A stretch of DNA of 64,000 bases from Zygosaccharomyces rouxii (taxonomy: Eukaryota; Ascomycota; Saccharomycetes; Saccharomycetales; Saccharomycetaceae), in assembly GCF_000026365.1 (NCBI RefSeq), contig NC_012994.1, positions 62,001 to 126,000 of the forward strand, read 5' to 3'. A program made the translations under genes and the position numbers. The notes under the pieces were generated by a model. It was not told the origin of the DNA, made no database searches, and was given only the letters and a program-made list of their open reading frames with translations. Numbering within the stretch: the stretch's first letter is position 1; each line of letters starts with the position of its first letter. This document shows, in pieces, positions 7,922 to 52,451 of the stretch.

Positions 7922-9353
7922 ATGTCTTCCACTCTTTACATCATTGAAAAATCTCCAAGAGGCCAGCTCGTCTCAGATCTGGTAAAGTATTTGAATCTTG
8001 ACGTTAAGATCGTCACTGATAGAGAATCAGATTCAACTTTTAAGAAAAACTTTCCATTAGGAAAGATTCCTGCATTCCTTGGCAAAAATGGTTTCAAATT
8101 AACTGAAACCATCGCTGTCATCTATTACCGTATGTTACTTTATGCCTTCCATTTTATTTTTTTTCTTTATGTTGCTAATTGTATGATGAGAAACCTTTTA
8201 TCAATATACAGTTATCCCTGTCTGAATGACAAATATGTCGAGATTTATTATACTCTGATCAACTAGCTTCATAAAGAAATATGAATCCGTTATGAACTTT
8301 TACTAACAAACAATTCTAGTTGTCACCTTGACCAATGACGAAAAAATTCAAAATCAACTAGCCGGTTCCACTGCTGAAGAAAAGGCTAGCATCTTGAAAT
8401 GGGTTTCATTTGCCAACTCTGATGCTGCTAGAGCAGCTGCTTCAGCTGTCTTTTTACTAGTTGGTCTAAAACCTTTCAACAAGAAGGAATTAGATACTTC
8501 TTTGGAAGCTCTAGAACAGTATGCTCAGGCTTTTGAACAAAGACTTTCGGAATACACTTACTTGGCTACTGAAAATGTCACTCTTGCTGATATCGTGTCT
8601 TATTACATCTGGGCCTTTTCATTCTCATCTGCTCTTGGCGCTGATTTCAGAAAGAAGCACCCTCAATTGACAAGATGGTTCAACACCATTGGTGCTCACC
8701 CAAGCGTGCAATTTTCTCACAAGGGTTTCAAACCTGTGGAAAAGGCTCTTGAGCCACCTCAAGGTAAGAAGAAGGAGCAAAAGAAGGAACAAAAGAAGGA
8801 ACAACCAAAGCAAGAAGCCGCCCAAAAGGCTCCTGCTGCTCAACAACCAGCTCAAGAGAAGAAACCAAAACACCCATTGGAAGTATTGGGTAAGTCATCT
8901 TTCCCACTTGAAGACTGGAAGAGAAAGTACATGAATGAAGACACTAGGCCAAGTTCATTGCCATGGTTCTGGGAAAACTACAACCCTGAAGAATGGTCTC
9001 TTTGGAAGGTTGAATACAAATATAACGATGAATTGACTTTGACTTTTATGTCCAACAATTTGATCGGTGGTTTCTTCACCAGATTATTTGCATCCGTTAA
9101 ATACATGTTCGGTTGTTTGGTTGTTTACGGTGAAAACAACAACAACGGTATCATCGGTGCCATCATGGTTAGAGGCCAAGATTACGCAAAGGCCTTCGAT
9201 GTGGCTCCAGACTGGGAATCTTACAATTTCACCAAATTGGACGCTACTAAGCCAGAAGACAAGGCCTTCGTCGAAGACATGTGGGCTTGGGACAAGCCAG
9301 TTATCGTCAATGGTGAACCAAGAGAAATCTCTGACGGTAAAGTCTTGAAATGA
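7922..9353 (+). CDS. TEF4: Tef4, translation elongation factor eEF1B gamma (spliced: 7922-8129, 8320-9353)
   Basis: 413 aa after splicing (yeast Tef4: 412). Exon 1 (208 nt) ends in ...AVIYY plus one base; exon 2 restores L-VTLTNDEK. A GST-like N-terminal domain (residues 1 to about 215), a Lys/Gln/Pro linker and the conserved EF1G domain (KHPLEVLGKSSFPLEDWKRK through DGKVLK) are all present. eEF1B gamma anchors the eEF1A guanine-nucleotide exchange complex. Both TEF4 and its paralogue TEF3/CAM1 exist in yeast; position between RRP14 and VMA5, the intron and its snoRNA identify TEF4. Codon use is of the highly expressed type. Confidence 0.96.
8130..8319 (+). other. TEF4 spliceosomal intron
   Basis: 190 nt. 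Donor GTATGT at 8130, branch site TACTAAC at 8301-8307, acceptor TTCTAG ending at 8319. It interrupts codon 70 after its first base. It is shorter than the S. cerevisiae TEF4 intron (about 326 nt), and about half of it is the embedded snoRNA. Confidence 0.95.
8174..8267 (+). ncRNA. SNR38: snR38, C/D box snoRNA in the TEF4 intron
   Basis: C box ATGATGA at 8183-8189, D' box CTGA at 8222-8225, D box CTGA at 8255-8258. A terminal stem GCTAATTG (8174-8181) pairs with CAACTAGC (8260-8267) at 7 of 8 positions. Directly upstream of D' is the guide CAGTTATCCCTGT (8209-8221), exactly complementary to the universally conserved 25S rRNA segment ACAGGGATAACTG in the peptidyl-transferase centre. That is where yeast snR38, also hosted in the TEF4 intron, directs 2'-O-methylation of a G. 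The length of about 94 nt agrees. Box C' is not clear. Confidence 0.9.
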
Positions 9354-11041: not shown

Positions 11042-13048
11042 ATGCAGTCTATTTCAAACGGTTGTACCGATGCAATTGTCCAGCCTACCTCTATTAGGGT
11101 TGTGTTGAGGTTAAAACCACTTATTGATGAAGCGGCCAAGCTGTCATATGTGGAAGATGGCGCTGGATCCTTATCGTTACAAGATTTCCCACAAGTAGCT
11201 GGTAAGGCAACTTTCTTTAGTGATGCAAATGATACCAATAAATTTCGATTCAATAAAGTTTACGACGTAGGTGTGAGACAACAGGAAGTATGTGAAGATA
11301 TCATTGGTGACAATGTAATGGAACTCCTAGCAGGTTTCAATGTAAGCATAATGGCCTTTGGATCAGAAGGGTCTGGTAAAACATATACTATGTTCGGTAA
11401 TGATCACGAGGAAGGTATAGTTCAGCGGATGTGCCAATCAATCTTTGATCAATTGGATAAGTTACATGAAGATAGTGGCAATGAATCAACTATCAGTATA
11501 AATTTCTTCGAGTTATTTGCTGAGAATGTTTATGATCTCTTATCTCTTCAGAAAAATTCAAAAGTTTTGAAGACATCCAGTGATACCAAAACACATACTT
11601 TGTCTGTTAAGGGTCTTCGAACTGTCAGCGTCAATTCCGTTTATGAGCTTTTAGCTTATATTAATGAAGGTCACCTTCGTAGGTGTCATTCGGATTCTCA
11701 TTATAGGAAATCTAGATCTAGTGCCTTTTTAAATATTACAGTGGAACAAAGGAATAAAAAGGAGGAGACCTTGAAGCATAGCGTTTTGCAACTAATAGAT
11801 TTAGCCAGTTCTGATAAATTGGATAAGAATTTGAAATATGATATTTCAACCGATGAGATGAAATCTACCAATTCATCTATGCAAAATTTGCATCAAGTAG
11901 TTTATGGACTATCGGAATTAGAATCACCATCCTCAAAGAACCATAGCTCTAAACATACTCATCGTACCTCTCGTCTGGCAAAATTTTTACAACAGGCAAT
12001 TGGTGGTGATAGCAAGACTACAGCCGTGATGCTTTCTTCCACCGATAAGGCGGATAGAGAAAATACTGTAATCACTCTATCGTTGGGCTCCAGACTCAGA
12101 TCAATCCATAACTTTCCAGTACAAAACAAAATGGGACTTAATTCTAAAGCTCTTCTCGATCTTAGACTAAAGAATATGAGCACAAGGGAGGATAGTTATT
12201 TGACTCGAATAAAATATTTGGAAGATGAAGTTAGTAAATTGGGTGGTACCATTCAGCAGAATAAAAACCAAGTTTCCACAAACAAATCTTTGACCGAAAA
12301 GAATATGAAGTTAATGGATCAATTAGAATTATATCGTAAATCTCAACAAACTCAGAAATCCGGTTCTGAAGAAGAGAATTTAACGTCTCAACAAAATGGA
12401 AGGATTCAAAATGAGATGTCTGAAGTTTTAGATAACCTAATGGAAAAATGCGAAAGAGTAATTCAATTACAGATGAGATTGGATGAAGAATTACGCCAAA
12501 AGTCACAAATGTCGCAGCAACTCAACTACAAGGAATCAAAGGCTCAGGCTCTTGAAGCTATGAACGTTAAGCTTTTAGAACAACTGAACACCAACGAAAA
12601 TGAAATGAGGAACGTTCTCAATACCAATTCAATTCTGCGAAAAGAGATGGAAAAATGGATGCATGTAGCTAAAACACGTTCAGAAAAAATCGAAGAATTA
12701 CAAAATGAGATCCAAGAACGTCAGGTTGGAAATGTCCCTCAAAATGGTCTATTGTTTCCCCCAGGAGAATTGAATCATATTAGAGATGCCTCTAAGAATA
12801 AAAAGGGCAATTGGTTATTCGGTAATTCCAGTAATAACGCTCTAGGGACCAGAAAAATATCTAATCTATCCAATAGTAACAATCTAGGGACCAGGAAGGT
12901 ATCTAATGTATCCACTAGTAGTGCCGTGACGATAAATTCCCAAGAATCTAATAGCTCTAAGACATCCCATAGAGGACTTAACCTTCATGCAGTTCGACTA
13001 CCTTCAGGCATTGAGAACGAAAACTCTAGTGACAAAAACAATCCTTAG
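11042..13048 (+). CDS. SMY1: Smy1, degenerate kinesin-like partner of type V myosin
   Basis: 668 aa from the ATG at 11042. An N-terminal kinesin-like motor domain (about 20-370) is followed by coiled coil (about 380-570) and the family-specific tail with RKVSN repeats and GLNLHAVRLPSG. The P-loop GSEGSGKT is intact, but switch I is altered (RKSRSSAFLN) and switch II reads DLASSD instead of DLAGSE. Yeast Smy1 promotes Myo2-dependent polarised transport without microtubule motor activity. The gene lies between VMA5 and KAR5 and converges with KAR5 with 20 bp between the stops. Confidence 0.93.
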   Translation: MQSISNGCTDAIVQPTSIRVVLRLKPLIDEAAKLSYVEDGAGSLSLQDFPQVAGKATFFSDANDTNKFRFNKVYDVGVRQQEVCEDIIGDNVMELLAGFNVSIMAFGSEGSGKTYTMFGNDHEEGIVQRMCQSIFDQLDKLHEDSGNESTISINFFELFAENVYDLLSLQKNSKVLKTSSDTKTHTLSVKGLRTVSVNSVYELLAYINEGHLRRCHSDSHYRKSRSSAFLNITVEQRNKKEETLKHSVLQLIDLASSDKLDKNLKYDISTDEMKSTNSSMQNLHQVVYGLSELESPSSKNHSSKHTHRTSRLAKFLQQAIGGDSKTTAVMLSSTDKADRENTVITLSLGSRLRSIHNFPVQNKMGLNSKALLDLRLKNMSTREDSYLTRIKYLEDEVSKLGGTIQQNKNQVSTNKSLTEKNMKLMDQLELYRKSQQTQKSGSEEENLTSQQNGRIQNEMSEVLDNLMEKCERVIQLQMRLDEELRQKSQMSQQLNYKESKAQALEAMNVKLLEQLNTNENEMRNVLNTNSILRKEMEKWMHVAKTRSEKIEELQNEIQERQVGNVPQNGLLFPPGELNHIRDASKNKKGNWLFGNSSNNALGTRKISNLSNSNNLGTRKVSNVSTSSAVTINSQESNSSKTSHRGLNLHAVRLPSGIENENSSDKNNP

Positions 13049-18820: not shown

Positions 18821-18920
18821 GCTGTTCTTTTAAAAAAGAACCAAAACAGTCGCTGTTCGCTTCGCTCACAGCTTCAAAGAAACATGCAATAGTTCAAGTT
18901 CGTCTTCCCGCTCAGCTCCC
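18821..18920 (+). repeat. Structured intergenic element, copy A
   Basis: Hairpin 1 is a perfect dyad GTTCTTTTAAAAAAGAAC (18824-18841). The 11-nt linker CAAAACAGTCG follows. Hairpin 2 has stem CTGT/ACAG (extendable to GCTGT/ACAGC, 18852-18872) around the 11-nt loop TCGCTTCGCTC. Downstream, 18892-18920 (GTTCAAGTTCGTCTT...) matches the end of copy B closely, after about 20 nt not present in B. The function is unknown. Confidence 0.7.
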
Positions 18921-19184
18921 ATTCTATAAATTCCCACTCGCCATCATTCTGCGTAGAAGTATCGCGTATATGATAGCGGCTACCGAGATTCTGACTCAAG
19001 CGAGATTACCCTGCCCATCACGTGATACAGAGATACAGCCATACTACTTATCCAATTACATAACCTACGTATCCAGTTTGCTCCCCAAAATATCGAACAT
19101 ATTACTACCTTTATCGCCTATAGCTTCATCGTCCTTGTACATCTTCCGATATCAACCTCGAGTAATCTTTTCGTAAGATATGAC

Positions 19185-19296: not shown

Positions 19297-21180
19297 ATGT
19301 TACTACCAGTTCAAGTTCATAGTGATGAGATCCTCTCCCACATCCTTTCTCATGATACAACAATTCTAATCGGTGAAACTGGTTCGGGTAAATCAACCCA
19401 AATTCCACAGTTACTCTTAAAATATGGTAAAATCGCAATCACACAACCACGTAGGGTCGCTGCGATTAATTTAGCCACTAGGGTCGCACAAGAAACAAAT
19501 TCAAGAGTTGGTGATACTATTGGTTACTCAGTTCGTTTCGATCACAGGACTTCATCAAAAACAAGATGCAAATACGTTACAGACGGTATGTTGCTAAGAG
19601 AAATGATTAATGATAAAGAGCTAAAGAACTACGATACTGTTATTATCGATGAAGCCCATGAAAGAACAGTTTTGACTGATTTAATTATCGGTTTCCTTAA
19701 GGAACTACAGGGACGGAGAAAATTGCGTATAGTTATCATGTCGGCTACATTAAACGCCGAATCTTTTAGCCGATTTTTCCACAATGCCCCTATTTTACAT
19801 GTTCGTGGTAGAAGATTCCCAGTACAACAATTATACCTTAGAGAACCGTGCGATGATTTGGTCGAGATAGCTATTCGTTGTGTGGTACAAATTAATGCGG
19901 GGGAACCCCTCGGTGACGTATTGTGTTTTTTACCGGGACAAGAAGAGATCGACAGGGCTGTAACTTTCCTCGAAAGAATTGGACCGGAGATTAGAAGTAG
20001 GGGATTCCCAGTCATGGTCGGTATGCCACTTTATGCTTCATTACCACCATCAGAACAATTGAAAGTTTTCCAAAGGATCAAAGGTAAACAACAATCACGT
20101 AAAATTATTTTCTGTACAAACGTTGCGGAAACATCTATTACAGTCCCCGGTGTAAAATACGTTGTTGATTCAGGATTACGTAGGGTTAAAGTTTGGAGAC
20201 ACGCATTAAACTTGTCTACCTTGCTTACCGTCCCAGTTTCGCGCGCCTCTGCACAACAGCGTTCCGGTAGAGCCGGTCGTGAATGTGCAGGAAAATGCTA
20301 CCGATTATTCCAGGAATCAGATTTTGAGAAAATGCCAGCAGTTACAGAACCAGAAATCGCGCGATGTGACGTCACAGAACCATTACTGTTGTTAAAGCGT
20401 CATGGTGTAGATGATGTTTTGAATTGGTCATGGTTTGAACATCCGGGGAAGGAATCTATTTTGCAAGCTCTTGGAGAACTGTTACTATTAGGGGCATTAG
20501 ATGCAAAGGGATCGTTGACACCCCTAGGATATAGAATGTCATCTTTACCACTGCCACCGCAGTTAGGTGTTGTTCTAATAGCCGCCGAAGATAAACAAAA
20601 GCACTGCCTCGACACTTGTATTGATATTGTTGCGTGCCTGAGTGTGGAGAATGTTCTGCTGTCTCCACCGTGGGAACAAAGGGATATAGTCAATGAACGC
20701 CGTACAGCCATCTGCCACCGTGCATCACGTTGGGGAGATTTGGTGCTCTACAAGGAATTGTGGGATCACTACTTTAGAACCTCCTTGACCGGCGATGAGA
20801 AAAAAACCTTCTGCCAAGAACTATACGTAAACCAAAGGGCAATGCGACAGGTGCAAAAAGTGCGGGGGCAACTACGGAGTCTATTCCGATTACATGAGGA
20901 TCCTGACCCCACCGCACACCACGCCCTTGAGACTGAAGAAATCCCCGCAGTCATTACATGTTTTTTATCTGGGTACCCTAAGAACTTAGCAATTTTACAC
21001 CCAGACCGTTCACACAAGATTGTTACCACCGGTGAAACGGTTCAACCACACCCTGCTTCAACTCTTTTCACACAGCGCAAGACCGATTGCCCCGCGATCC
21101 TCTACACGGAATACGTTTATACGTCAAAAGGTTACGCTAGGAATGTTTCTAGGCTCGAATTATCATGGTTAAGTTCGTAA
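19297..21180 (+). CDS. DHR2: Dhr2, nucleolar DEAH-box RNA helicase for 18S rRNA
   Basis: 627 aa. Helicase motifs in order: GETGSGKST (about 28), [12 protein letters not shown] (about 119), SAT, TNVAETSITVPG, QRSGRAGRE, then the HA2/ratchet and OB-fold regions ending in ELSWLSS. QPRRVAAINLATRVAQE and DEAHERTVLTDLIIGFLK match Dhr2 better than Prp43 or Prp22. Yeast Dhr2 is about 735 aa; this protein lacks the N-terminal extension and begins at the conserved LPV before motif I. There is an in-frame TAA at 19261 and no AG between it and the ATG, so a spliced N-terminal exon is not possible with a canonical acceptor. Confidence 0.92.
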   Translation: MLLPVQVHSDEILSHILSHDTTILIGETGSGKSTQIPQLLLKYGKIAITQPRRVAAINLATRVAQETNSRVGDTIGYSVRFDHRTSSKTRCKYVTDGMLLREMINDKELKNYDTVIIDEAHERTVLTDLIIGFLKELQGRRKLRIVIMSATLNAESFSRFFHNAPILHVRGRRFPVQQLYLREPCDDLVEIAIRCVVQINAGEPLGDVLCFLPGQEEIDRAVTFLERIGPEIRSRGFPVMVGMPLYASLPPSEQLKVFQRIKGKQQSRKIIFCTNVAETSITVPGVKYVVDSGLRRVKVWRHALNLSTLLTVPVSRASAQQRSGRAGRECAGKCYRLFQESDFEKMPAVTEPEIARCDVTEPLLLLKRHGVDDVLNWSWFEHPGKESILQALGELLLLGALDAKGSLTPLGYRMSSLPLPPQLGVVLIAAEDKQKHCLDTCIDIVACLSVENVLLSPPWEQRDIVNERRTAICHRASRWGDLVLYKELWDHYFRTSLTGDEKKTFCQELYVNQRAMRQVQKVRGQLRSLFRLHEDPDPTAHHALETEEIPAVITCFLSGYPKNLAILHPDRSHKIVTTGETVQPHPASTLFTQRKTDCPAILYTEYVYTSKGYARNVSRLELSWLSS

Positions 21181-21762: not shown

Positions 21763-23724
21763 ATGGCTGCAAGTAGTGTGAGTGAAAAGGATATACCTCC
21801 AGATAACCGTCATACGATGGGGGACTTAGAGAAAGGTTCATTAATTGAATCCGCCAGTTCCAGTAGGGAACGCTATTCTACTATTGCAAAAAAAGAAGAT
21901 GGGAATGAAAAGCAAACTTACGGTGGGGAAACTCCCCCATCTTCCGACTCTCCCGTTGTACGGGGGAACGGCGCGGAGTCATTACCCCGCGATCTTCCCG
22001 AGGGTGATTCTTACGATCAGCTTGGGTTCGAACCCCCAAAGGGGATAAAGGCATACATGTTCTCTAGAACTGCCCACGCCGGTGCAAGGGGTTTAAGACT
22101 TCGAGTTCTTTGTTCGGCTACTGCTGTGATTGCGTTCTTGCTTTTCGGATATGATCAGGGTCTGATGTCCGGTGTTATTAGTGGTGATGAATTTAACAAC
22201 GAATTTCCTGCAACGAAAGAGAAGGCAACTCATAAAAGAACCACTGTTGTTATTCAAGGTGCTGTTACCGCTTGTTACGAACTGGGATGTTTTGTCGGTT
22301 CAGTCTTTGTTATGTTTTTCGGTGAAAAAATTGGTAGAAAGCCTTGTATTATTATGGGTGCTTTGATCACAATTGTCGGTGCTACCATTTCTACTGTTGC
22401 ATTCCATCACGCATGGGGTTTGGGTCAATTTGTTGTGGGTCGTGTTGTTACTGGTGTTGGTACTGGTTTGAATACATCTTCTATTCCCGTGTGGCAATCA
22501 GAAATGGCTAAGCCTAATGTTAGAGGTCGTCTAATTAACTTGGATGGTTCTACCATTGCTCTTGGTACGATGATTGCCTACTGGTTAGATCTGGGCTTTT
22601 CCTTTATTAAGAACTCTGTTCAATGGAGATTCCCCGTCTCACTGCAAATTCTGTTTGCCCTAGTACTATTCTTTGGTATTATTCAAATGCCCGAATCACC
22701 ACGTTGGTTAATTGGACAAAAGCGTGTTCAAGAAGCCAAGTATATTCTCGCCTGTTTAAACGATTGCAGCATGGACGATGACGAAATTGTCGCCGAAGTT
22801 ACCATGTTGATTGACACCGCTAGAAGATTTGAAAATAAGAAGCGCAGCATCAAGGATCTATTGACCAACGGTAAGACTCAAAATATGAACCGTGCCATTA
22901 TTGCTGCCTCCACCCAATTCATGCAACAATTCACTGGTTGCAATGCTGCCATTTATTATGCTACTATTTTGTTTCAACAAACTTTGAAAAGGTCTCGTAC
23001 TGTAGCATTGATCGTTGGTGGTGCTTTCTCTACCGTCTATTTCTTCTCGACCATACCTACCTTCTACTTAGTTGAAAACTTAGGTCGTCGTCCCATGTTT
23101 TTAATCGGTGTTACCGGTCAGTGTTTGTCGTTTGTCATTACATTTGCTTGTTTGACCCATCCTACTCCAGAACACGGTAAAGGTGCCGCTGTCGGTCTTT
23201 TCTTGTTTATCGTGTTCTTCGGTTTGGCTATGTTGCCACTACCATGGATTTACCCACCTGAGGTCGCTTCTATGAGAGTTCGTGCTGCTACCAATGCTTT
23301 GTCAACTATGTGTAACTGGTTGACAAACTTTGCTGTCGTTATGTTTACACCAGTTTTCATTCAAACTTCTCAGTGGGGTACCTATTTCTTCTTCGCTTTA
23401 ATGAACTTCATCTATATCCCAGTTGTCTTTTTGTTTTACCCTGAAACTGCAGGTAGATCATTGGAGGAAATTGATGTCATTTTCGCCAAGGCCCATGTGG
23501 AACACGCTCAACCTTGGAGAGTTGCCGCCAAGTTACCTAAGTTATCAATGACTGAAGTTGAGGACTACTCCAGTGCCTTGGGTCTGTACGACGACGAAAA
23601 CGAAAAGGAGGGTATTGAAGGTGGAGAAGGAGATGAAGAACCACAGGAAAATGCACTTTTCACCGCTGAGCCATTGAACGGCTCTTCTTCGTCGCGTGAA
23701 TCTGAGCGGGCTCCTCACGCTTAA
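21763..23724 (+). CDS. STL1-type glycerol/H+ symporter, first (longer) paralogue
   Basis: 653-aa sugar-porter-family MFS protein with 12 predicted membrane segments. Motifs: FGYDQGLMSGV (end of TM1 region), GRKP, VGRVVTGVGTGLNTSSIPVWQSE, PESPRWL, QQFTGCNAAIYYAT, LPWIYPPEVASMRVRA and PETAGRSLEEIDVIFAKAH. These match Stl1 (PVWQSEM, YPPEIASMKVRA, AGRSLEEIDIIFAKA), not the Hxt hexose carriers. It differs from its neighbour by a hydrophilic N-terminal extension of about 70 residues and an acidic Ser-rich tail. Stl1 carries glycerol inward with protons, an osmotic-stress function. Z. rouxii is known to have two such genes; which number this one bears I cannot tell. Confidence 0.88.
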   Translation: MAASSVSEKDIPPDNRHTMGDLEKGSLIESASSSRERYSTIAKKEDGNEKQTYGGETPPSSDSPVVRGNGAESLPRDLPEGDSYDQLGFEPPKGIKAYMFSRTAHAGARGLRLRVLCSATAVIAFLLFGYDQGLMSGVISGDEFNNEFPATKEKATHKRTTVVIQGAVTACYELGCFVGSVFVMFFGEKIGRKPCIIMGALITIVGATISTVAFHHAWGLGQFVVGRVVTGVGTGLNTSSIPVWQSEMAKPNVRGRLINLDGSTIALGTMIAYWLDLGFSFIKNSVQWRFPVSLQILFALVLFFGIIQMPESPRWLIGQKRVQEAKYILACLNDCSMDDDEIVAEVTMLIDTARRFENKKRSIKDLLTNGKTQNMNRAIIAASTQFMQQFTGCNAAIYYATILFQQTLKRSRTVALIVGGAFSTVYFFSTIPTFYLVENLGRRPMFLIGVTGQCLSFVITFACLTHPTPEHGKGAAVGLFLFIVFFGLAMLPLPWIYPPEVASMRVRAATNALSTMCNWLTNFAVVMFTPVFIQTSQWGTYFFFALMNFIYIPVVFLFYPETAGRSLEEIDVIFAKAHVEHAQPWRVAAKLPKLSMTEVEDYSSALGLYDDENEKEGIEGGEGDEEPQENALFTAEPLNGSSSSRESERAPHA

Positions 23725-24974: not shown

Positions 24975-26753
24975 ATGGGTAAAAGAACACAAGGTTTCAT
25001 GGACTATGTATTCAGCAGAACTAGTACAGCTGGTCTCAAAGGTGCGAGACTCAGATATACGGCAGCAGCTGTCGCTGTTATTGGATTTGCACTTTTCGGT
25101 TATGATCAAGGTTTGATGTCAGGTCTTATTACTGGTGATCAGTTCAACAAAGAATTTCCACCAACGAAATCAAACGGTGATAATGATCGTTATGCTAGTG
25201 TTATTCAAGGTGCAGTTACCGCTTGTTACGAAATTGGATGTTTTTTCGGTTCACTGTTTGTTCTTTTCTTTGGTGACGCTATTGGTAGAAAACCATTGAT
25301 TATTTTTGGCGCTATAATTGTCATTATTGGGACTGTTATTTCTACAGCACCTTTCCACCACGCTTGGGGTTTGGGTCAATTTGTTGTTGGTCGTGTTATT
25401 ACTGGTGTTGGTACAGGTTTCAACACTTCTACTATTCCAGTGTGGCAATCTGAAATGACGAAACCAAATATTAGAGGTGCAATGATTAATTTGGATGGTT
25501 CTGTTATTGCTTTTGGTACTATGATTGCTTACTGGCTTGATTTTGGATTTTCCTTTATTAATTCAAGTGTTCAATGGAGATTTCCAGTTTCTGTTCAAAT
25601 TATATTTGCTTTAGTTTTATTGTTCGGTATCGTTAGAATGCCAGAATCACCACGTTGGTTAATGGCAAAGAAAAGACCCGCAGAAGCTCGTTACGTGTTA
25701 GCTTGTTTGAATGATTTACCCGAGAATGACGATGCAATTTTAGCTGAAATGACATCTTTACACGAAGCTGTCAACAGATCTTCGAACCAAAAATCTCAGA
25801 TGAAATCATTGTTCTCTATGGGTAAGCAACAAAATTTTAGCCGTGCGTTGATTGCATCTTCTACCCAATTTTTCCAACAATTTACTGGTTGTAATGCTGC
25901 CATTTACTATTCTACCGTTTTGTTTCAAACTACTGTTCAATTGGACCGTTTACTTGCAATGATTCTAGGTGGTGTCTTTGCAACTGTCTACACTTTATCT
26001 ACATTGCCATCATTTTACTTGGTCGAAAAAGTTGGTCGTCGTAAGATGTTTTTCTTTGGTGCATTGGGTCAAGGTATTTCATTCATCATCACATTTGCTT
26101 GTTTGGTTAATCCAACAAAGCAGAATGCAAAGGGTGCCGCTGTTGGTTTATATTTATTCATTATATGTTTTGGTTTGGCAATCCTAGAATTACCATGGAT
26201 TTATCCACCTGAAATTGCATCAATGAGGGTTCGTGCAGCTACTAATGCCATGTCAACCTGTACTAATTGGGTTACCAATTTTGCAGTTGTTATGTTTACA
26301 CCAGTTTTCATTCAAACTTCTCAATGGGGGTGTTACCTGTTCTTCGCGGTTATGAATTTCATCTATTTGCCAGTTATCTTTTTCTTCTACCCAGAAACCG
26401 CCGGTAGGTCGTTGGAAGAAATCGATATTATTTTTGCCAAGGCCCATGTCGATGGTACATTACCATGGATGGTTGCTCATCGTTTGCCCAAGTTATCAAT
26501 GACTGAAGTTGAAGACTACTCACAATCCTTGGGTCTTCATGATGATGAAAATGAAAAGGAGGAATACGATGAGAAGGAAGCTGAGGCAAATGCTGCTTTG
26601 TTCCAAGTGGAAACTAGTTCTAAATCACCATCATCTAATCGTAAAGATGATGATGCACCAATTGAACATAATGAAGTTCAAGAATCAAATGATAATTCAT
26701 CAAACAGCTCTAATGTGGAAGCACCAATTCCAGTACATCATAACGATCCTTAA
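24975..26753 (+). CDS. STL1: Stl1, glycerol/H+ symporter
   Basis: 592 aa; the closer of the two to S. cerevisiae Stl1 (569 aa), starting with the same compact N-terminus (FMDYVFSRTSTAGLKGARLR). Shared signatures include FGYDQGLMSGLITGDQFN, VVGRVITGVGTGFNTSTIPV, LDGSVIAFGTMIAYW, PESPRWL, QQFTGCNAAIYYSTVLFQ, LPWIYPPEIASMRVRAA and PETAGRSLEEIDIIFAKAH. The C-terminal cytoplasmic tail is acidic and Ser/Asn-rich. It imports glycerol against its gradient at the plasma membrane and is typically induced by hyperosmotic shock through Hog1. It is about three-quarters identical by eye to the upstream paralogue in the membrane core, and its codon use is more A/T-ending. Confidence 0.93.
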   Translation: MGKRTQGFMDYVFSRTSTAGLKGARLRYTAAAVAVIGFALFGYDQGLMSGLITGDQFNKEFPPTKSNGDNDRYASVIQGAVTACYEIGCFFGSLFVLFFGDAIGRKPLIIFGAIIVIIGTVISTAPFHHAWGLGQFVVGRVITGVGTGFNTSTIPVWQSEMTKPNIRGAMINLDGSVIAFGTMIAYWLDFGFSFINSSVQWRFPVSVQIIFALVLLFGIVRMPESPRWLMAKKRPAEARYVLACLNDLPENDDAILAEMTSLHEAVNRSSNQKSQMKSLFSMGKQQNFSRALIASSTQFFQQFTGCNAAIYYSTVLFQTTVQLDRLLAMILGGVFATVYTLSTLPSFYLVEKVGRRKMFFFGALGQGISFIITFACLVNPTKQNAKGAAVGLYLFIICFGLAILELPWIYPPEIASMRVRAATNAMSTCTNWVTNFAVVMFTPVFIQTSQWGCYLFFAVMNFIYLPVIFFFYPETAGRSLEEIDIIFAKAHVDGTLPWMVAHRLPKLSMTEVEDYSQSLGLHDDENEKEEYDEKEAEANAALFQVETSSKSPSSNRKDDDAPIEHNEVQESNDNSSNSSNVEAPIPVHHNDP

Positions 26754-35200: not shown

Positions 35201-37147
35201 TTATTTGGAAGAAGTTTTAGATACTTCTTTGGTGGTTTCGTGATCCCGTAATTTTTGTTCTTCTTCTAGTGTGCCTCCTTCAGACTTGCCAGATTTTGCA
35301 TATACTTGGTTAGTCTCAATTTCTTCATCATCGTCTTCTTCGAGCAAATCTGTTGCAGGGATCTGGAGATCCTCGATGACTTTCTCCTCGACATTTTGCA
35401 AATCCATGAGACCATAGATGGTAATTGTAATTAGACCAAGTACACCCGCCACGCATGAAAATACAAATGCCACATAACCCTTGGCTGTGAATCCACTTGG
35501 AATTGATTTTTCCTGTTTGTTTTCAAGAGCCAAATTGAACCAGTCTGTGGTGCCAGCAGCATTACCTTCAATGGGGACACCAGAATTTTTACAAACGCGT
35601 TTATGGGAGTCTGTTAAGTATTGCGATGGGTTGGATTGAATTCCTTCTGGATCTTCCACAAGAACAATTGCTAGCCCTTGTATCAAATGCCATTCGATGT
35701 GACAGTGGAAAAACCAAACACCTGGATTATCAGCTCTAAATCTAATGACGAAATTTGATTGCGGTCTTACGTAAATCGTATCTCTCAACATTGGGTATTC
35801 GGGGAAACTTGTATGGTTCTTAGGATCAAATGGAAGCGGAGGATCGTTATCATCAACAGCGCCTGCACGAGCAATTGTTTGAAAGACGTGACCGTGTAAA
35901 TGGAATGGGTGGGTACCTGTATCTTGACTGTTGAGAACGATTTCGACGATTTCGTTTCTCTTCAAGACAAAGGTATTCGTGTTAGTACCATAGATGTAAC
36001 TGTTACTGGCATATTTACCGGCAGATAGAACAGTCATCAAAGTGGGGACCTTTGGTGTAGTATAAGTGATATTGTTGAAGAAAGCATAGTTTTTACCACT
36101 GATTAAATTATCCATGGCCACCGTCAATTCAATTCTGTGATCTGGTTCTGGTAGCAATTCCTGTTTATGATAAGGCACCAAATAGAAATCATCGAGGAAA
36201 TTGTCAAGAGAATTCACATATGCTTCTTCGGGCTTAGGTTTACTGGAATCGTAAGTCATATAAGAAGTCTGGTTTAACAACAAATGTTTGGGAATCTTAT
36301 CAAGCATGCTATCGTCGTATTTCTGCATAATAGCATAATTTTTATCCTTATTATCCTTCGTCCTCACCAGAACAGAATACCTCTGAGCAACGGTGATATA
36401 CAGCATATCTGTCGCATTCTTTTCGGTAACGACACCATCAACTTCAACAACCTCCATTTCGTGGTCTTCAAGCCAGAAATATTGTGAGACGAACCCACCG
36501 GTATTAACAATACGTAACAGATAAGTCTTATTGGGTTCCACGTTCCACGTCAAGTTTCTGGTATTATTGATCAGTAAATTTTGTGGGATGGGTTCAGCAC
36601 CAGTTGGATTAGTCAATGATAAGAAAGCTGGTTTCAACTTAGCCACAGTCTGATCGTACCACTCACCAATTTCAAGCAACACTTCTTCATCGTAATCGTA
36701 GGGGAAATTTTTGTTATTTTCACCATCATCAATGATGAATAAACCTCTCATACCATCTTCATACTGAGCATCCGTGTGCGAATGGTACCAGTAGGCACCT
36801 GCATTGTCAGAAACCGTAAAGTTATAGGTAAAAGTATCATTAGGGCTGATTGGACATTGTGTTAAGAATGGTGGTCCATCCATCTGAGTGGAACCATTTT
36901 GGAACATACCGTGAACATGTAAAGTAGTATTAGAATCGTTAAACCCATTAGTTAAATTGATAATAACTCTGTCGCCCTTGGTGACACGAACTGATGGCCA
37001 AGGAAATTCACCATTACAGGTAACCACCTCTCTTCTCTTGATACCATCTGGATTGGCGTAACCCCATCCAGTGGTCCAGTTGTAAACATGAGTGGCACCT
37101 AAAACCTGCTGGAAGAGCAGAAACACTAGCGCCAAGCTTAGAATCAT
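35201..37147 (-). CDS. FET3: Fet3, multicopper ferroxidase of high-affinity iron uptake
   Basis: 648 aa (yeast Fet3 636). A signal peptide (MILSLALVFLLFQQVLGA) is followed by three cupredoxin domains with all copper-ligand blocks: LHVHGM, WYHSHTD, HPFHLHGH and HCHIEWHLIQG. Many N-glycosylation sequons occur. One C-terminal TM (YVAFVFSCVAGVLGLITITIYGL) precedes an acidic cytosolic tail. Fet3 oxidises Fe2+ at the plasma membrane and hands it to Ftr1. The vacuolar paralogue Fet5 would look similar; position (YMR058W next to SEN15 and AAC1) supports FET3. Three Aft1-type sites lie upstream. Confidence 0.95.
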   Translation of the reverse strand: MILSLALVFLLFQQVLGATHVYNWTTGWGYANPDGIKRREVVTCNGEFPWPSVRVTKGDRVIINLTNGFNDSNTTLHVHGMFQNGSTQMDGPPFLTQCPISPNDTFTYNFTVSDNAGAYWYHSHTDAQYEDGMRGLFIIDDGENNKNFPYDYDEEVLLEIGEWYDQTVAKLKPAFLSLTNPTGAEPIPQNLLINNTRNLTWNVEPNKTYLLRIVNTGGFVSQYFWLEDHEMEVVEVDGVVTEKNATDMLYITVAQRYSVLVRTKDNKDKNYAIMQKYDDSMLDKIPKHLLLNQTSYMTYDSSKPKPEEAYVNSLDNFLDDFYLVPYHKQELLPEPDHRIELTVAMDNLISGKNYAFFNNITYTTPKVPTLMTVLSAGKYASNSYIYGTNTNTFVLKRNEIVEIVLNSQDTGTHPFHLHGHVFQTIARAGAVDDNDPPLPFDPKNHTSFPEYPMLRDTIYVRPQSNFVIRFRADNPGVWFFHCHIEWHLIQGLAIVLVEDPEGIQSNPSQYLTDSHKRVCKNSGVPIEGNAAGTTDWFNLALENKQEKSIPSGFTAKGYVAFVFSCVAGVLGLITITIYGLMDLQNVEEKVIEDLQIPATDLLEEDDDEEIETNQVYAKSGKSEGGTLEEEQKLRDHETTKEVSKTSSK

Positions 37148-37520: not shown

Positions 37521-37784
37521 ATTTTCGAGAAAAGAGTCCGAAGATTGATATTTACCATAGATACAAGTATTATGTGCGCGAAAACCTGTAGTAGTAAGGG
37601 TCGTAAAAGTAATAGTAATAAGAAATGAAAAGTATGGGTGATTCTCCCATAGTGCCTTGGAAGGTTGGTGCTCGATGAATTGTATGAGAATTAATAGAAA
37701 GATATGCAGTTGGTGTGTGGGTGTCTGACCAACGAAGTGTGTGGGTGCTCTGTAGATAGCCGCTGAGGTGGGGAAATAGGAGGA

Positions 37785-37870
37785 GGGGAGATGGGCGGCA
37801 AGACGAACTTGAACTCCAACCTGTAAGCGAAGCGAACAGCAACTGTTTTGGCTCTTTTCAAAAGAACAGC
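37785..37870 (-). repeat. Structured intergenic element, copy B
   Basis: On the minus strand: hairpin 1 GTTCTTTTGAAAAGAGC (37851-37867), where a T.G wobble replaces a T-A pair of copy A. The linker CAAAACAGTTG is next. Hairpin 2 CTGT-loop-ACAG (37821-37839) has loop TCGCTTCGCTT. GTTCAAGTTCGTCTT and further similarity to copy A continue to about 37785. Confidence 0.7.
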
Positions 37871-37943
37871 TTATCGTCAACGCGACGGCGGCTGCAACAC
37901 CAACATTTCTCACTCGTTGACACACCTCGTTGGACGTCGGCGG

Positions 37944-38009
37944 ATTGTTCTTTTAAAAAAGAACCAAAACAGCTCTTACTCGCAACGCTCGTAATCTTCA
38001 AACATACAA
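37944..38009 (+). repeat. Structured intergenic element, copy C
   Basis: Hairpin 1 GTTCTTTTAAAAAAGAAC (37947-37964) is identical to copy A. The 11-nt linker CAAAACAGCTC follows. Hairpin 2 is TTAC (37976-37979), 11-nt loop TCGCAACGCTC and GTAA (37991-37994). Then CTTCAAACATACAATA resembles CTTCAAAGAAACATGCAATA of copy A. It is head-to-head with copy B. Confidence 0.7.
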
Positions 38010-52350: not shown

Positions 52351-52451
52351 GAAGCGGTGGCTCAATGGTAGAGCTTTCGACTCCAGTTAGATCCTGGAAA
52401 TTTCCGGAATTGGCAATCGAAGGGTTGCAGGTTCAATTCCTGTCCGTTTCA
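52351..52451 (+). tRNA. tW(CCA): tRNA-Trp (CCA) with intron
   Basis: Acceptor stem GAAGCGG pairs with CCGTTTC (52444-52450), discriminator A at 52451. The A box lies in GGCTCAATGGTAGAG and the B box in GGTTCAATTCC. The anticodon is CCA (52383-52385). A 29-nt intron, placed one base 3' of the anticodon (about 52387-52415), leaves a 72-nt mature tRNA. The mature sequence equals yeast tRNA-Trp as I remember it, except that base 37 is G rather than A. A T run follows at 52461 as Pol III terminator. Confidence 0.96.

Follow-up and report, generated by a model that had tools for sequence, protein, structure and literature searches.

We confirmed that the three related elements (copies A, B and C) in the 64,000-nucleotide stretch of the Zygosaccharomyces rouxii genome analysed here, called the window (C5:62001-126000), are members of a dispersed intergenic family of about 40 two-palindrome elements. 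The analysis establishes the family and its geometry, the retention of the dyads, the common tails and spacers and, in the examined stretches, the intergenic position. These elements look more like protein-bound DNA sites than RNA genes. We suggest, with a probability of roughly 40%, that the core of the element is a composite protein-binding site, which is read as double-stranded DNA and was retained after dispersal.

A dispersed family of two-palindrome elements

The initial annotation described three copies of a structured element in the window. All three are present where it placed them and have the claimed architecture: an A/T dyad, an 11-nt linker beginning CAAAACAG and a 4-bp stem that encloses an 11-nt loop. 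The repeat finder linked A, B and C independently (D7, I2, I3). Stem 2 is CTGT/ACAG in copy A and TTAC/GTAA in copy C, so that three of the four pairs differ on both sides, and the T.G wobble in dyad 1 of copy B was also seen. The likeness of A and B extends beyond the core, as had been noted, and takes in GTTCAAGTTCGTCTT (pairs I2 and I3). Copies B and C form a single head-to-head composite, in which B is oriented toward a FET3-like gene. The tail of copy A lacks the exact CTTTTATA and carries TCTATAAAT close to that place. Copy A may retain part of the spacer found between B and C. The features of these loci are listed below, with the evidence in brackets.

18824..18871, + strand: core of copy A, R type, class CTGT/ACAG (sequence, DNA search, profile)
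18824..18841, + strand: dyad 1 of copy A, GTTCTTTT-AA-AAAAGAAC (sequence, pairing count)
18853..18871, + strand: stem-loop 2 of copy A, CTGT-TCGCTTCGCTC-ACAG (sequence, pairing count)
18872..18935, + strand: tail of copy A, homologous to other R tails (repeats, alignment)
18976..18982, + strand: GCGGCTA site downstream of copy A (motif scan)
19297..21180, + strand: DEAH-box helicase gene, downstream of copy A (ORF, annotation)
35201..37147, - strand: FET3-like multicopper oxidase gene, downstream of copy B (ORF, annotation)
37757..37763, - strand: GCGGCTA site downstream of copy B (motif scan)
37765..37820, - strand: R tail of copy B (GTTCAAGTTCGTCTTGCCGC...), without CTTTTATA (repeats, alignment)
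37821..37867, - strand: core of copy B, R type, class CTGT/ACAG, with a 1-nt loop in dyad 1 (DNA search, profile)
37868..37946, no strand: B-C spacer, between the two heads (alignment, DNA search)
37947..37994, + strand: core of copy C, L type, class TTAC/GTAA, head-to-head with B (profile)

Elsewhere in the window, two related genes lie in tandem, 2951 nt apart (21763-23724 and 24975-26753), and the first is a sugar transporter according to Pfam. A 42-nt unit is present in two tandem copies, 81% alike, at 12827-12910 within a 668-aa ORF.

The genome searched comprises 9,764,635 bases in 7 contigs. DNA searches gave 18 matches with copy A as the query and 23 with the C6:99.7k copy. The loose core pattern CAAAACNGNNNNTNNTCGCTNCGCTC, with up to three mismatches, matched 44 places in the genome and only 2 when reversed. 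Thus, the likeness of the copies is not due to chance. A core profile was built from 23 cores and applied to the fetched stretches with a cut-off of 25 bits. It turned out that 38 cores, distributed over all seven contigs, reach this score. Among them are 37 of the 44 pattern matches; four others fall under the cut-off (C3:546373, C7:60133, C7:230327, C7:295393), and three lie outside the profiled stretches (C1:661484, C3:1354879, C6:273257). Two single-arm echoes and two half-cores were excluded from the family counts, and C4:1338k was not a copy on inspection. The window copies are therefore not a simple duplication without further members in the genome.

Other queries were less productive. 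A search of the genome with the tail only found one other place. A fixed-spacing pattern of a TATA-like box and TTGCCACC recovered three C7 copies exactly; beyond these copies the same spacing showed no excess (11 matches versus 13 for the reversed control). A pattern scan of viral contigs gave 0 matches, and a pattern with 16 set letters matched genome contigs at least 118 times; as this is about the number estimated for chance, these matches were set aside.

The core of about 48 nt comprises an 8-bp A/T dyad, an 11-nt linker and a 4-bp dyad enclosing an 11-nt loop. In dyad 1, GTTCTTTT and AAAAGAAC are separated by a loop, which has 2 nt in 31 of 38 copies and between 1 and 5 nt overall. The linker has 11 nt in nearly every copy and mostly reads CAAAAC[A/T/C]G..., and the loop of stem 2 is TCGC-NNN-GCTC. 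The stem-2 classes are CTGT/ACAG and TTRC/GYAA; a CTTT/AAAG class is represented by one perfect copy, C2:305k, and by three relatives, CATT/AAAG, with a mismatch. Over the 38 copies, the 152 stem-2 cells include 132 Watson-Crick, 6 G.T, 8 A.C and 6 other pairs, and the 304 dyad-1 cells include 290, 5, 4 and 5, respectively. The added copies thus keep the pairing, with 138 of 152 stem-2 cells paired if G.T is included. The two positions beyond the fourth stem-2 pair show no clear pairing in the 38 copies.

Inverted pairs less than 90 nt apart account for 18 of the 38 cores. Seven pairs are head-to-head (C2:196k, C3:393k, C3:443k, C3:546k, C5:99k, which is B/C, C6:99k and C7:1175k), and two are tail-to-tail (C7:541k, C7:754k). 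L-type copies end with the core, and R-type copies carry on into a tail, which reads GTGACATGCAAAAG-TCAAG...TTGCCGC, next CTTTTATA in 9 of 16 copies and next TTTGCCACC in seven. Many copies have this common tail, and a TATA-like box is frequent in it.

Fungal mitochondrial double hairpin elements contain two hairpins per unit, and the yeast unit likewise has two hairpin-capable dyads (290/304 and 132/152 cells Watson-Crick). Sponge mitochondrial genomes contain repetitive hairpin-forming elements (PMC2800124), and the yeast copies are like these sponge and fungal elements in being short intergenic hairpin-capable repeats. In contrast to the mitochondrial elements, the yeast copies lie on the seven large nuclear contigs searched, have a conserved linker and loop words and are often paired inside larger cassettes. 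The initial annotation knew of no described family, and the titles and abstracts retrieved with a few terms, which cover part of the literature on the element or its kind, yielded none either. The part covered on double hairpin elements and on template switching contains no account of this element. Within this literature, the element is undescribed.

Conservation, neighbouring genes and a possible bound site

Among the 38 copies, pairwise identity is 74% over the last 30 nt of the core and 27-30% in the 20-nt flanks (ungapped). In the eight solitary copies, these values are 76% and 27-28%. This difference argues for a bound DNA site. For 14 R-type copies aligned with gaps, conservation in windows of ten columns is 0.27-0.45 ahead of the core, 0.71-0.95 within it, 0.55-0.87 in the proximal tail and 0.23-0.47 beyond. 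It is higher in the loop words TCGC and GCTC of the core than in the stems. However, conservation of the core could also stem from an active mobile source, which counts against the DNA-site reading.

If the core is bound by a protein, its two dyads at nearly fixed spacing would each probably be contacted by a putative dimeric or tandem DNA-binding protein, and the loop words TCGC and GCTC would be read by it directly. The core lies within intergenic DNA, and in many cases a larger, promoter-like cassette contains two cores head-to-head. Such cassettes may have been dispersed through duplication or gene conversion; afterwards selection would have held the core, and most flanks would have drifted. 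Selection may then act at the sites at present, and the bound protein may affect FET3, FTR1 or other genes.

In the stretches examined, no ORF longer than 180 aa overlaps a core (301 nt only at C7:1757k). Copy A is located between divergent SUR7-like and DEAH helicase genes, and copies B and C between divergent FET3 and mitochondrial carrier genes. Other divergent loci are CBS protein/desaturase, NDC80/FTR1 and Vid24-type/HMG-box. The loci C6:705k, C7:832k, C5:168k and C2:196k are convergent or tandem, and several loci lie between convergent genes, which argues against the DNA-site reading. We classified 16 of the 17 R-type copies by the facing gene, with C7:1757k excluded. The tail faces a gene start in 10 of 16 and a 3' end in 6 of 16. 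The genes faced include those of Aim19, a desaturase, a phospholipase, a helicase, FET3, a Hap4-motif protein, FTR1 and an HMG-box protein. Of the 10 tails facing a gene start, 5 carry the exact CTTTTATA, and of the 6 facing a 3' end, 4 do. A role as promoter of the neighbouring gene was not supported, since just 10 of 16 tails face a gene start and CTTTTATA is unlinked to facing. The same two observations also speak against a bound site.

GCGGCTA, which resembles the Ume6 site URS1, occurs 25 times in 19.3 kb near the cores and once in intergenic DNA elsewhere in the window (12.1 kb). Within 600 nt of the cores, 15 of 27 sites are on the tail side, in the core orientation. The excess is partly due to shared descent and to the higher GC near cores (0.45 versus 0.38). 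CAGCGGCTA gave 139 genome matches versus 20 for the reversed control, which indicates a wider motif of this genome; this widespread motif is perhaps URS1-like. TTTGCCACC is the reverse complement of the Rpn4 site PACE. With GCGGCTA/GCCGCC words and TTTGCCACC near the cores, the family resembles the URS1 (Ume6) and PACE (Rpn4) promoter elements, but we know of no yeast site that matches the 48-nt double dyad, which far exceeds URS1 and PACE in length. TGCACCC, the Aft1 word, lies between core and gene at both FET3 and FTR1 and is absent from most loci. Three such words (37326, 37497 and 37514) are located upstream of the FET3-like gene, as expected under Aft1 control.

Upstream of FET3, of FTR1 and of an OLE1-type desaturase gene there are L-spacer-R composites that are 84-85% alike and form one group. 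The spacer of this group recurs at a single additional locus, C7:754k. The products of FET3 and FTR1 belong to one iron-uptake complex. These composites and the excess of GCGGCTA were counted for the DNA-site reading. However, the grouping was spotted post hoc, and equally or more closely related groups lie beside unrelated genes (C7:60k/230k/295k; C3:443k/C3:546k/C6:99k). Therefore, it is a lead and not a test. In addition, the R core and the spacer (0.72-0.97) of the FET3/FTR1/desaturase group show about equal conservation, which argues against a simple rule that only the core is kept. This conservation and the close groups beside unrelated genes moved a little weight from a bound site to a relic of a mobile element.

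Mobility and duplication as alternative explanations

Such a relic of a small non-autonomous element is the main rival, and we regard it as quite possible. The core would then be a terminal or subterminal transposase site, the R tail would be the element's own promoter, and the copies would now be functionless. The intergenic copies on all 7 contigs and the inverted pairs agree with this, as does the TATA-like box, which is found in R tails regardless of whether a gene start is faced. C7:541k and C7:754k are homologous to the C7:1175k composite only as far as the R-core border, and in one group spacer and core are about equally conserved. The core borders of the 38 copies were tested for target-site duplication, and none was seen there: the longest shared word averaged 3.84 for a copy's own borders and 3.89 for mismatched ones. 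Thus, of the earlier proposal of a dispersed family or a small mobile element, the family with its many members stands and mobility is possible, but the core borders do not carry this mark of insertion. The integrase core PF00665 had 0 matches in the genome, with a positive control in 6 of 14 cases, a result that does not exclude old relics. The hAT profile PF05699 gave 0 matches, but its control was silent too, so that this search was uninformative. In the stretches examined, core pairs never have an ORF of more than 180 aa between them, and nothing but the core is common to the solitary copies.

Yeast MITEs and solo LTRs are short, non-coding, dispersed and intergenic, with a promoter-like tail in some, and this family is like them in all these respects. 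In contrast to them, it has no core-border target duplication or TG...CA ends common to all copies, and no autonomous partner was found in limited searches. An LTR relic of a living retroelement was rejected because no integrase-core match was found in the genome. Insertion targeted to tRNA genes was rejected as too weak: only 4 of 20 loci have tRNAs, five in all, no further than about 1.3 kb from the element, which is on the tRNA 3' side in 3 of the 4.

It is unlikely that the family arose only through segmental duplication and gene conversion of intergenic DNA, with functionless palindromes kept by arm-to-arm template switching. Duplication or gene conversion is indicated by C7:60k, C7:230k and C7:295k, three distant places on one contig. 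C7:60k has 309 nt in common with C7:295k at 98.4% identity and 345 nt with C7:230k at 93.6%, and two of the places also carry degenerate cores, with a similar spacing of about 480 and 168 nt. Coupled changes would also be expected from arm-to-arm copying. However, the 48-nt limits are identical in 38 copies on seven contigs, and TCGC and GCTC, which are outside the protection by arm copying, exceed the stems in conservation. Still less likely is a nuclear counterpart of the mitochondrial double-hairpin elements, a unit of about 48 nt that is moved or copied via a two-hairpin single strand and was co-opted as a regulatory site for FET3, FTR1 and others. If the element is mobile, its size would be unusually small among those of the nucleus.

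Coupled changes in stem 2 and the question of RNA

We assessed the covariation suggested earlier from copies A and C. Stem 2 stays paired across the classes. In 37 distinct copies, 41 stem-2 cells were changed on both sides (shuffle mean 17.1), and the covariation score was 0.658 versus 0.328 for shuffled copies and at most 0.139 for slid structures; neither the double-change pair count nor the pair-type count exceeded the shuffles. A tree, weakly resolved, was built from 36 copies with the stem columns removed and two copies with linker indels excluded. It gave 10 same-branch double changes versus 3.0 expected, and 0 of 2000 placements were as high. Coupling is plain between the classes and at most weak within the TTRC class. 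In the third pair of the TTRC/GYAA class, 18 copies have A-T in 9, A.C in 6, G-C in 2 and G.T in 1 (Fisher P 0.56); with five near-members added, these numbers are 10, 7, 5 and 1 (P 0.15). This mixture resembles degenerate half-sites. Six TTAC/GCAA copies carry a standing A.C mismatch. Three pairs changing together between classes are awkward for a protein site.

A transcribed core that folds into two hairpins as a structured RNA appears improbable. The coupling between classes and one double change in dyad 1, at C7:832k, are in its favour, and RNAalifold placed stem 2 and the inner two pairs. However, RNAalifold left dyad 1 unpaired, and the second stem has just 4 bp around an 11-nt loop. For an RNA, one strand should have more G.U than A.C. 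No such bias is seen on either strand (8 A.C and 6 G.T in stem 2, 4 and 5 in dyad 1, small counts in which related copies share states); this speaks against RNA, as does the standing mismatch, and is what DNA predicts. RNA folds of the three window copies on both strands had z-scores of -1.40 to +1.00 relative to shuffles. They have no extra stability, which counts for the DNA-site reading. A search with Rfam and for tRNAs gave no match over the copies, in the window and 20 loci, and in the 20 loci found only tRNAs beside the elements; the hint of a Pol III B box in the tail was thus not substantiated. Elsewhere in the window, Rfam matched snoR38 at 8176-8265, inside a 2.4-kb stretch without a 150-aa ORF, and a tRNA of 101 nt at 52351-52451, perhaps intron-bearing, which ARAGORN in bacterial mode missed. 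An RNA gene is disfavoured, since G.U bias, fold stability and an Rfam match are all lacking. Selection on structure was proposed initially; at the RNA level it is not supported, given that A.C outnumbers G.T in stem 2, that the window copies fold like shuffles and that the third pair is not significantly coupled within the TTRC class.

About 40 double-dyad copies are spread over a 9.8-Mb yeast genome, and some of them adjoin genes of iron uptake, fatty-acid desaturation and respiration control. If, as we suggest, the core is a bound double-stranded DNA site and a host factor binds the element, this would define a new set of co-marked genes.
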